Shown one piece after another: positions 39,528 through 43,516 of a stretch of 62,361 nucleotides of DNA. Source of the DNA: Nitrospinaceae bacterium (GTDB taxonomy: Bacteria > Nitrospinota > Nitrospinia > Nitrospinales > VA-1); the NCBI GenBank assembly GCA_023271875.1, contig JALPWY010000006.1:1-62361 (forward strand), in the 5' to 3' direction. Below the pieces are notes generated by a model. The model was not told the origin of the DNA. It was given only the letters and a program-made list of their open reading frames with translations, and made no database searches. Numbering within the stretch: position 1 is the first letter of the stretch; each line of letters starts with the position of its first letter. The translations under genes and the position numbers were made by a program.

Positions 39528-41765
39528 GTGAGTCTAGGCCTAATGAGTAAACAAATGCACACAAGTTGGGAAACTATACGCTCTGTGCTTGGGAAATCAA
39601 TAGTTAGGATCGATTCTAACGACCCCCAATCCTTCGCTTGGTTCGACTTTCAGTGGAAGCTTATAGTAGGTAAAGACTTGGCACTTGCCACACGGGTCAA
39701 CAAATTTTCGAGTAAAAGCTTGTTTGTCACGGTGTCAGACAGAGTATGGTTTCCAGCTTTGGAACCCTTACGTGAAAAAATTATCAAAACGATTAATGAA
39801 CGCGCAGGATCGGCCTTAGTGAACAGAATTGTTTTCCAAGAAGGTCCTATTGTAGAATCTATTAAAAAAAATTCTTCCGAAGAGGAAAAGCACTATTCGT
39901 TGAAGCAAAATAAAATGCAAGCACCAGAAATAGGAATGAAGGATGAAAGTGTGAAGAATATACTTGATCGTATCAACTGTAAGCTAAAAGTGATTTTACC
40001 TGTTGCAATACTAGTGTTCATCTCCAATTGTAACACCTTTCCAATAGACCAAGTTTCCCGGGGCATTGATTTTTCTAATTCATATGCAGTTAAGGTTGTT
40101 GAGAAGCTATCCGCAAAAAAAAGTAACGAGAATGTTAGGGATCCACGAGCGTACTACTATTATCTAATGGCTTTGCAAGCGGTTCGAGAACATCAGTTTG
40201 AGCAAGCTTCAGAGAATTATCGCCTGGTGGTTCAGTTTGCCCCAGGTAATTATGAATTTTATACTCAATTGGCGATTAATCTCATTCGTGCAGGGGAAGT
40301 AGAAGATGCCTATAAGACACTGCAGGAGTCTTTGATTCATTTTCCTGATAATCCCGAATTGAATATGATGATTGGAGATATTCTCGCCGGGCGGCTCGAA
40401 TATGAGCGAGCTCTAAGTCATTATCAACGCGTAATTCAGGCTAAGTCGGGGTTAGCAAGAGCCTACCTTCTTAGCGGTGCAATTTACGAAGTTCGTCAGC
40501 AATATGATCTTGCAGAAGATATGTACAAGAAGGTACTTCAGGTAGAATCAACGAATCCCTTGGGATACCACTACCTTGCGAGAGTTAATATTGTTGCAGG
40601 GAAATTAGACGATGCCAAAAGATCCTTAAATCGAGCTTTGGAGTTACGTCCTAATTTTTTGAAGGCTCGAGAATTTCTTGCATGGACCTTGGAGGCACAG
40701 GGGAAGCCCGATGAGGCTAAAAAACAATACAAGATTCTTTTAAAGCTAGACCCCTTGAATGAAAGCATTCATAAGCATATGACCACTATGAAAGGATCAA
40801 CTTTACGAATGGATGTAGACTCGAGCAAATACCGAGCAAATGCAAAAGAAGTTTTGGGCGCGCCAGATGTGCATATAAAAATTGGAGTCATTTACTATGA
40901 ACAGGGAATTTACTTGAAAGCGCTTGATGAGTTTCAGTTGCTTCAGGCGAAGAAACCTAAAAAAGAAATTTTAATGGTGCTTGGGCGTGTTTATGAATTT
41001 CTTGGGCGTATAGATAGAGCCATTCAAGAAATAAATAGTTTACTGAAAATAGAGCCTAGGTCCGTACATTTAATGATTTCCTTGGCTAGGTTACATAGTA
41101 TGAATAAACGCCCTGAAAAAACAGTTCAATTGATTGAGGAAGCTATCAAGGTAGATCAAAATAATGACACCCTTTATCATTCTCTGGCCCTTGCCTGTAT
41201 CGCGGTTAATCGATTAGATGAAGCCATTGACGCAATGCAAAAAGCAATTGCCATAGACAAAGATAAAGATTCTTATTATTTCGAACTGGGAGCTCTCCTA
41301 GAGCGGAAAGGTGAATTTGAGCTAGCTATAAAAAATATAAAGCACTCTATCGAGCTTAATCCCATGCATTCTAATGCGCATAATTTTCTGGGGTATATTT
41401 ATGCTAGGGAAGGGAAATCACTAGATAAAGCTCTAGGGCATTTGGATAAGGCACTTTCTATTCAGCCTAAAAATGGTTATTTTCTTGATAGTTTGAGCTG
41501 GATTTATTTTAAGAAAGGAGAATCGGGAAAAGCCCTTAAAGAACTTAAAAAGGCTATGGTTTATACGTCCCCGGATCCAGTTTTATATAGCCATTTAGGA
41601 GACATCCACTTTTCATTGATGAACTATATAAAAGCTAGCAAGGCATGGGAAACAAGTCTTATCCTCACTTTAGAAAAAAAAGATAATATTGATAACGAGT
41701 TACCTGATCCTAAAGAGCTGGAAAAAAAGATTCAAAAGGTGAAGAAACTTCTGAGTAATAATTAA
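39528..41765 (+). CDS. DciA (DUF721)-TPR lipoprotein fusion
   Basis: The 745-residue frame joins two unlike parts. Residues about 10-110 are a DUF721/DciA domain (FDFQWKLIVGKDLALATRVN, SLFVTVSDRVWFPALEPLRE), the DnaB helicase loader/operator of many bacteria. After a 30-residue linker comes a lipoprotein-like signal (LKVILPVAILVFISNC, about 152-167) and then some 14 TPR units to the end. An in-frame GTG at 39951 with AAGGA upstream would give a clean lipoprotein (MKNILDRINCKLKVIL). So this may be one fused gene, two overlapping products, or a lost stop codon. Start is GTG 39528 or ATG 39543. It begins the lolB-ispE-prs-like cluster. Confidence 0.75.
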   Translation: MSLGLMSKQMHTSWETIRSVLGKSIVRIDSNDPQSFAWFDFQWKLIVGKDLALATRVNKFSSKSLFVTVSDRVWFPALEPLREKIIKTINERAGSALVNRIVFQEGPIVESIKKNSSEEEKHYSLKQNKMQAPEIGMKDESVKNILDRINCKLKVILPVAILVFISNCNTFPIDQVSRGIDFSNSYAVKVVEKLSAKKSNENVRDPRAYYYYLMALQAVREHQFEQASENYRLVVQFAPGNYEFYTQLAINLIRAGEVEDAYKTLQESLIHFPDNPELNMMIGDILAGRLEYERALSHYQRVIQAKSGLARAYLLSGAIYEVRQQYDLAEDMYKKVLQVESTNPLGYHYLARVNIVAGKLDDAKRSLNRALELRPNFLKAREFLAWTLEAQGKPDEAKKQYKILLKLDPLNESIHKHMTTMKGSTLRMDVDSSKYRANAKEVLGAPDVHIKIGVIYYEQGIYLKALDEFQLLQAKKPKKEILMVLGRVYEFLGRIDRAIQEINSLLKIEPRSVHLMISLARLHSMNKRPEKTVQLIEEAIKVDQNNDTLYHSLALACIAVNRLDEAIDAMQKAIAIDKDKDSYYFELGALLERKGEFELAIKNIKHSIELNPMHSNAHNFLGYIYAREGKSLDKALGHLDKALSIQPKNGYFLDSLSWIYFKKGESGKALKELKKAMVYTSPDPVLYSHLGDIHFSLMNYIKASKAWETSLILTLEKKDNIDNELPDPKELEKKIQKVKKLLSNN

Positions 41766-41812
41766 CTATCAATAGTTTGTCCCCGCTTTTAACCATACTG
41801 ATACCTAATTCT

Positions 41813-42595
41813 ATGCGAATTTTCCTGCGCCAGTATGTAGTAGGGTGCCTGCTGGTTTTCATTGTTTCCTGCCAACCCAAGGTTTTGCCTTTATCAACAG
41901 AAGCGAAGCCAGAAATGAAGTCTTTGACCTCTTTATTTTCAGCACTCGAAGCTCGTAAATCTGCTATTCGAGACGTAAAAGCATTTGTACGTACAAAAAT
42001 TTCTGGAAAAAATTTAAATCAATCGTTTCGCCAAACATTGATTGTCCAAGGGGATGAAGCAATGCGAGTGGATACTTACAGCTTATTTCGTCAGGTTTTA
42101 GGTGTGCTGATTTATGAAGGGGGAAAAACTTTAATGTATGATCCGCGAGAAAATCGAGTCATCTCTGGAGAAGCGGTTTGGGAAAGTATGCACCGGGTTT
42201 TTGGGACTTATATAGACTTCGGAGATTACATCAGTGTGTTTTCAGGAGGAATACCGCACCTTTCTCATTTACAGACGAAAGTGGCAAAATGGAATAGCGA
42301 CCAAACAGTTTTGCAAATCGAAACGATCAACCAAAAAACAGGAGAACGGGTAGATATTGGAATCGACGCTTATACGTTGTTGCCAAAATCATTACTCTTG
42401 ATTCGAGGTACCCGGGAGATTTACAGAATATATTGGGACGATTACAAGAAGATTGATGAATTGGACTTCGCTCACAAAGTTGTAATCGAGATTAAGCCAA
42501 AAAATCAATCTATTGTAGTAAGTTACTCAGACGTGATGATCAATCAAGGTATTTCTCTCGATGCATTTGAGTTGGCATTTGGATTGATGAACTGA
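41813..42595 (+). CDS. LolB/DUF4292-like outer-membrane lipoprotein
   Basis: The protein of about 260 residues has a lipoprotein signal (VGCLLVFIVSC, lipobox IVSC) and a LolA/LolB-type half-barrel: VKAFVRTKISGKNLNQSFRQ, MRVDTYSLFRQVLGVLIYEG, TLMYDPRENRVISG and a C-terminal VVIEIKPKNQSIVVSYSDV. It sits directly upstream of ispE, the classical place of lolB, and the upstream TPR partner fits the same order. I take it as the LolB-type lipoprotein receptor, but the sequence is diverged. ATG 41813 is preferred to a TTG at 41777. Confidence 0.75.
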   Translation: MRIFLRQYVVGCLLVFIVSCQPKVLPLSTEAKPEMKSLTSLFSALEARKSAIRDVKAFVRTKISGKNLNQSFRQTLIVQGDEAMRVDTYSLFRQVLGVLIYEGGKTLMYDPRENRVISGEAVWESMHRVFGTYIDFGDYISVFSGGIPHLSHLQTKVAKWNSDQTVLQIETINQKTGERVDIGIDAYTLLPKSLLLIRGTREIYRIYWDDYKKIDELDFAHKVVIEIKPKNQSIVVSYSDVMINQGISLDAFELAFGLMN

Positions 42596-42622
42596 AGAGT
42601 AATTGGTGAGGTGGTAAAAAGT

Positions 42623-43516
42623 ATGAAAATAAAATTTAAAACCCCGGCCAAAATTAACTTAGGTCTTCATATCCACGGAAAAAGGGAAGATGGGTTTCAT
42701 GAATTGGAAACAATTTTTCAAATGGTATCTTTATATGATGACGTGGAGTTAGAACTTTTGTCCTCGGGGATTAAACTGGAGTGTGATACGCCAGGAGTAC
42801 CCACGGATGATACTAACCTTGTTTGCAAAGCGGCAATTCTATTACAACAGTCTTATCAGGTTAAAGGTAAAGGAGTCAGCATTCGGTTGGGAAAAAAAAT
42901 TCCTTTCGGTGCTGGACTTGGGGGTGGTAGTGGTAATGCTGCCGGCGTACTTATGGGTCTGAATCGTTTGTGGAATTTGAATATAGAACGAGAGAAACTA
43001 CTTATATTGGCTGCTGAATTGGGTTCCGATGTCCCATTTTTTCTTAACTCGCCTTGCGCGCTTGGAATGGGGCGTGGGGAGCAGTTAAAGACCCTGAAAC
43101 CTTGTACCAAGTTTCAGGTTTTATTGGTGTTTCCTGGGTTTCCTGTTGCGACTTCTTGGGTGTATCAAAATCTAAAATTGAAGTTGACAAAACGGGAAAA
43201 TAATATTAGCATCCTGCGGAAAAACCTATCCTTATCGGACATCACAAGCTTAGGGTCCCGGTTGTACAATGATTTAGAACATGTTGTTATTCAAAGGTTT
43301 CCTGAAATCCAAGTTGTTAAAGACGAGTTGGTGGCTTGGGGTGCTTTGGGTGTTCTTTTATCTGGGAGTGGGTCCACCGTATTTGGAATTTTTGATAATC
43401 CGGAGAAGGCTCGGATTGCATGCACAGGTTTGAATGGGACTTGGGAAAGAGTTATTGTAGAAACGATTGAAAGTTTGACTGAATTCTGTCCGGAGGATAT
43501 CCTGAACTACCCCTAA
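42623..43516 (+). CDS. ispE: 4-(cytidine 5'-diphospho)-2-C-methyl-D-erythritol kinase
   Basis: The protein of about 297 residues is the GHMP kinase of the MEP isoprenoid pathway. It has the N-terminal FKTPAKINLGLHIHGKREDG, the ATP-binding PFGAGLGGGSGNAAGVL (about 93-109), SDVPFFLNSP and the C-terminal LLSGSGSTVFGIF. The start at ATG 42623 is backed by GAGGTGG eight bases upstream; a GTG at 42611 is in frame. It is followed by tRNA-Gln and prs, a well-known order. Confidence 0.95.
   Translation: MKIKFKTPAKINLGLHIHGKREDGFHELETIFQMVSLYDDVELELLSSGIKLECDTPGVPTDDTNLVCKAAILLQQSYQVKGKGVSIRLGKKIPFGAGLGGGSGNAAGVLMGLNRLWNLNIEREKLLILAAELGSDVPFFLNSPCALGMGRGEQLKTLKPCTKFQVLLVFPGFPVATSWVYQNLKLKLTKRENNISILRKNLSLSDITSLGSRLYNDLEHVVIQRFPEIQVVKDELVAWGALGVLLSGSGSTVFGIFDNPEKARIACTGLNGTWERVIVETIESLTEFCPEDILNYP

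Follow-up and report, generated by a model that had tools for sequence, protein, structure and literature searches.

A helicase-loader gene (dciA) fused in frame to a TPR lipoprotein gene in Nitrospinota, with a putative internal start

DciA normally helps to load the replication helicase inside the cell, where it is usually essential and cytosolic. Two proteins made from one gene and separated at an internal export signal are known from the fbcH cytochrome b/c1 polyprotein of Bradyrhizobium. The genes dciA and dna[CI] are reported to be mutually exclusive, dciA being lost when dna[CI] arrives (PMC5109545). In-frame internal starts that give rise to differently located proteoforms have been reviewed, and mapped in Salmonella (PMC11005335), and the gene order lbcA-lolB-ipk has been described in Pseudomonas (PMC6050968). 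Our literature search returned no clear precedent for an internal-signal polyprotein, and no papers linking Nitrospina with helicase loaders.

The window (the whole stretch of DNA that was analysed, 62,361 nucleotides of contig JALPWY010000006.1 from a Nitrospinaceae bacterium, assembly GCA_023271875.1) belongs to a Nitrospinota MAG with Nitrospina and Nitrospinaceae as its named relatives. It contains an open reading frame at 39528-41765 that comprises 745 codons without a stop and was reported from GTG 39528. From alignment with relatives, ATG 39543 is the likely first start of the fused gene. The parts of the frame, and the two genes that follow it, are as follows:

39543..41765, + strand: fused dciA-TPR lipoprotein gene; start aligned with those of G003, G001 and G005, with a weak Shine-Dalgarno sequence
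39621..39836, + strand: DciA KH-like (DUF721) domain; PF05258, AlphaFold pLDDT above 90, top Foldseek matches DciA, low dN/dS (0.07-0.55)
39837..39935, + strand: variable, disordered linker; pLDDT under 50, dN/dS 0.28-1.24, gaps among relatives
39936..39983, + strand: DciA C-terminal tail MKDESVKNILDRINCK, also the n-region of the signal; motif common to the ends of outgroup DciA proteins (families f5, f6, f8 and f9)
39939..39943, + strand: AAGGA, Shine-Dalgarno sequence of the putative internal start, 7 nt before GTG 39951
39951..39953, + strand: putative internal start GTG, 26 codons before the lipobox Cys; GTG in G003, ATG in G001, and the ATG start in split G004
39990..40028, + strand: hydrophobic core of the lipoprotein signal, VILPVAILVFISN, a 13-residue h-region
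40029..40031, + strand: lipobox Cys168, invariant in 25 of 25 fused proteins
40104..41702, + strand: TPR superhelix of about 14 repeats (TPR models, AlphaFold model), LbcA-like by gene order
41777..42595, + strand: next gene, DUF4292 / LolB-LolA-like lipoprotein (PF14125, E 8e-7)
42611..43516, + strand: ispE-like GHMP kinase (PF00288, PF08544)

The open frame, the Pfam matches and the AlphaFold and Foldseek results together confirm the original prediction that a DciA domain runs into a lipoprotein signal and TPR units without a stop. When the whole ORF was searched, the DciA family model matched residues 33-103 (E 3e-10), and the N-terminal part alone scored 44 bits against a curated cut-off of 24. 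Modelled with AlphaFold, the first 166 residues show the confidently predicted KH-like domain, then the disordered linker, and one lower-confidence helix that spans both the pre-signal segment and the signal core. The best three Foldseek matches were V. cholerae DciA complexed with DnaB (two chains) and Deinococcus DciA. Judged by sequence and predicted fold, the N-terminal part is a genuine DciA domain, with putative roles in DnaB binding and loading. Matches to many TPR models begin at about residue 200, and the AlphaFold model contains about 14 TPR-like helix pairs. Structures of PA4667 (LbcA) match at E 4e-14, among many TPR matches. Identification as LbcA by structure was uninformative, as all TPR superhelices match; PA4667 lies outside the top 50 by fold. 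By its gene order the TPR part resembles LbcA and would be an outer-membrane lipoprotein, with a CtpA-type protease as its putative partner. The best explanation of the locus overall, which we hold with moderate confidence, is an old fusion whose full-length chain is cut at the internal signal, supplemented by a second start, with helicase loading taken over by another protein.

DciA and the TPR lipoprotein share a single frame in 24 complete loci, distributed among families f1-f4 of one marine Nitrospinota order, as the original prediction had proposed should be checked. Most of the genomes compared are MAGs; two one-contig genomes (G008 and G037) carry the fusion, and the chromosome of one fused genome is closed. 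The frame is also open across the junction in two loci at contig edges (G007 and G053). Two separate genes occur in the f1 genera g3, g4, g6, g7 and g8, in G004, which belongs to the genus of the window, and in the outgroup families. On a tree of the TPR part (built by a quick method, rooted by the outgroup and with g4 left out) the fusion state changes six times, each change being forced by well-supported branches. Since the outgroups are split, these changes fit a single old fusion in the ancestor of the order, with four later splits within f1 (g3; g7; g6 with g8; and G004), and a further, separate fusion in G069 (family f8). This last DciA-TPR fusion (L082, G069:C31:1200-5200) is found without a detected DnaC-like gene, and its sister genomes G058 and G070 have stops immediately upstream of the TPR start.

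The separate DciA proteins of the outgroups end in a motif such as SIKDADLKKTIQRIISK. The fused proteins bear this motif as MIKDQELKEILTRLSAK, directly before the hydrophobic stretch, and two of its positions are almost invariant. The fusion thus left the whole of DciA in place, the tail serving as the n-region of the signal; on this comparison the pre-signal segment is DciA's own conserved tail and not a new linker. Derivation of the segment from the TPR gene was considered and dropped in view of the outgroup tails. In V. cholerae the C-terminal part of DciA forms a hairpin that stacks on DnaB (PMC9912922), to which the tail motif may, by analogy, be equivalent. In the split genera g3, g6, g7 and g8, DciA stops at or soon after the KH domain and lacks the tail motif (loci L013-L021, L062, L069, L072 and others of f1), and in g7, g8 and G004 the TPR protein begins with tail-like remnants.

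All 24 fused relatives have an h-region of 13-16 residues followed by the invariant Cys, and the signal of the window combines a basic n-region with its 13-residue core and Cys168, with no Asp at +2. An Asn occupies position -1 of the lipobox (window 40023-40031; SNC or ANC) in each of the order's 24 fused proteins as well as in many split ones, which places them outside the strict [AGS] lipobox; Asn at this position is tolerated in some phyla. Signal peptidase II (Lsp) is visible in 18 of 21 genomes. With its short h-region and basic n-region, its invariant Cys and no Asp at +2, the sequence fits an internal lipoprotein signal of N-in/C-out orientation that signal peptidase II would cut. The signal sits at an N-terminus only if the internal start is used, and its n-region would then comprise about 20-25 residues and be partly acidic; this length and charge, like the Asn at -1, speak against the explanation that we favour. 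The original prediction regarded a signal near residue 150 as difficult for a single chain to accommodate; the position is indeed unusual, but it is workable, since both parts would be served by an N-in/C-out chain open to cutting by signal peptidase II.

The internal GTG at 39951 lies behind AAGGA just as first described. This site scores -4.8 kcal/mol, start-codon penalty included, better than all 25 other ORF windows. In the split genome G004 the only good start of the TPR gene is an ATG at the very codon of GTG 39951. Fused genes of g2, g5, g10, g16, g12 and g15 carry the site as an ATG that precedes the Cys by 33 codons and mostly follows GAAGGA or AAAGGA, and the separate TPR gene starts at exactly this -33 position in all five split g7 genomes and in at least six g8 genomes, starts in split genomes having been chosen by Shine-Dalgarno score. 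Some g7 genomes have a spacing that deviates by about one base from that of the fused site, and in split g3 and part of g6 the TPR start is located elsewhere. The interpretation in the original prediction is largely borne out, and its choice of internal start has held up: split relatives usually begin the lipoprotein at the same codon (-26 in this genus, -33 elsewhere). The start at GTG 39951 is a well-supported, though putative, one, and the coincidence of internal sites in fused genes with the starts of split relatives suggests a working second start more strongly than any other evidence.

The strongest competitor, which we consider rather unlikely, is that the locus encodes a polyprotein only, all TPR lipoprotein being released by signal peptidase II and the start-like site being a by-product of the amino-acid sequence of the tail. 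A synonymous-shuffle test revealed no extra Shine-Dalgarno strength or selection (combined p 0.51), as would be expected of such a by-product; this is because the peptide around EGN-x-x-M already implies the site. Shuffling of codon order gave a different picture, with 18 strong sites against 5.5 expected (p 0.002, kinship ignored). Scoring detected no internal site in fused G002 and G038, which keep the fusion all the same, and only weak ones in G043, G044 and G042; these cases, the short h-region of cleavable type with its invariant Cys, and the presence of Lsp all agree with a polyprotein. Against it stand the start codons of split relatives, which land on the same codon, and the Met at -33, which replaces the S, P, L or V of outgroup tails and is therefore derived. 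G002 (L005) has ATT at the internal-start codon, still behind AAGGA, and would either lack an internal start or use a rare start codon.

The same junction could also belong to a stable bitopic protein, in which the chain stays intact with DciA inside, the TPR part in the periplasm and DciA tethered at the inner membrane through the signal of an LbcA-like periplasmic scaffold. Such a bridge would physically couple helicase handling or replication to envelope remodelling, the DnaC-like ATPase described below doing the ordinary loading. It would accord with the lack of a stop between the parts, with the age of the fusion and its retention in many lineages, and with the conservation of both tail and signal, but a stable anchor would usually need more than the 13-16 residues of this h-region, after which the invariant Cys comes, and the fusion has been undone at least four times. 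We judge a persisting bridge to be distinctly improbable.

The regions of the fused gene differ in their dN/dS values (Nei-Gojobori, close pairs, with noise in the short regions): values lie at 0.07-0.55 in the KH domain and 0.06-0.28 in the TPR part, at 0-0.49 in the tail and 0.10-0.44 in the signal, and at 0.28-1.24 in the linker. The low values in the KH domain, tail and signal indicate purifying selection and show that these have been retained, the linker hardly so. DciA Pfam scores are 30-54 bits within the order against 59-73 in the outgroups; DciA has thus diverged, yet is retained, and almost every genome keeps it, also where the two genes have separated again. A second DciA gene was sought in each genome and not found, so that each has a single detected DciA.

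The genomes of the order also encode a relative of DnaC/DnaI, an AAA+ protein of 289 residues with a Cys-rich N-terminal region (G000:C78:3790-4656; L102 / L113). It matches PF01695 with 40 bits (cut-off 24), falls under the NCBIfam equivalog cut-offs, and finds Aquifex DnaC as its best PDB match (E 5e-22). The gene was detected in 51 genomes of the order, including 26 of the 28 better ones, and in none of the 13 outgroup genomes searched. Its neighbourhood is common to several genomes and adjoins what, from reading the sequences of the neighbours, we take to be an argH-like gene. A prophage origin was rejected, the best phage matches being only about 28% identical and the neighbours conserved. 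DciA is accordingly found here together with a resident dnaC/dnaI-type gene, contrary to a rule that concerns distribution and is not a property of the protein. The DnaC-like ATPase may have taken over helicase loading, so that the fusion was tolerated; the fused genome G069, with no DnaC-like gene detected, counts against this link.

If the takeover were complete, DciA might be a mere passenger, a decaying leader of the lipoprotein gene. The restriction of the DnaC-like gene to the order relative to the 13 outgroup genomes, the lower DciA scores and the loss of the tail in split genera point in that direction, but the dN/dS of the KH domain and the keeping of DciA in nearly all genomes after the splits make a passenger very unlikely. 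An assembly or sequencing error that joined two genes, conceivable in a set composed mostly of MAGs, is rejected as extremely improbable given the 24 complete loci, the one-contig genomes G008 and G037 and the clade-consistent pattern; the relatives with two genes, which the original prediction would have taken as a sign of error, are secondary splits and outgroups.

In the explanation that we favour, an old fusion with a cut chain and a second start, the dciA gene of the order's ancestor, complete to its C-terminal tail, would have been joined to a TPR lipoprotein gene at the hydrophobic core of its signal. Ribosomes that start at the 5' end would make a DciA-signal-TPR chain. Since no stop and no separate DciA gene were found, cytosolic DciA must come from this full-length chain. 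The internal signal would insert N-in/C-out while DciA remains cytosolic, and signal peptidase II could cut before the Cys and release the TPR lipoprotein. DciA would be left with a short hydrophobic end, which a site-2 protease may trim; RseP-type proteases of E. coli clear away remnant signals and also cut membrane proteins of type II (PMC8144685), and DciA could be freed in the same manner. The second start, inside the DciA tail, would yield the TPR lipoprotein alone, probably in larger amount. Takeover of helicase loading by the DnaC-like ATPase would have made the arrangement tolerable. Both initiations, the processing, the topology and the amounts are what we infer from the locus and its relatives; on these grounds one frame probably makes two differently located proteins.

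A lineage in which DciA and a DnaC-like ATPase coexist offers a natural intermediate for the study of helicase-loader replacement. Furthermore, one frame may encode both a cytosolic and an exported protein, its second start having outlasted the fusion and the repeated splits. Standard annotation will call a single protein at such a locus, and may miss both the coexistence of loaders and the dual product.

Compared with described systems, the N-terminal part is like other DciA proteins (DUF721, PF05258) in its KH-like domain, in a fold shared with V. cholerae and Deinococcus DciA and in a tail shared with outgroup DciA. Unlike them, it is followed in the same chain by an export signal and a TPR lipoprotein, and it coexists with a DnaC-like ATPase. 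As with LbcA (PA4667), the TPR outer-membrane lipoprotein that is the CtpA partner in Pseudomonas, a large TPR lipoprotein precedes a lolB-like gene and ispE, whereas here DciA stands in front and the sequence likeness is of the generic TPR kind. Genes with internal-start proteoforms likewise have one frame, two starts and possibly two locations, but here unrelated proteins were joined by fusion, and the second start would be the retained start of the lipoprotein. In fbcH both parts are membrane proteins of one complex, whereas the present parts are a replication factor and a lipoprotein. The novelty of the locus lies in the fusion of a known loader to a known type of exported protein, in the internal start kept within it and in the DnaC-like partner, which was not expected.
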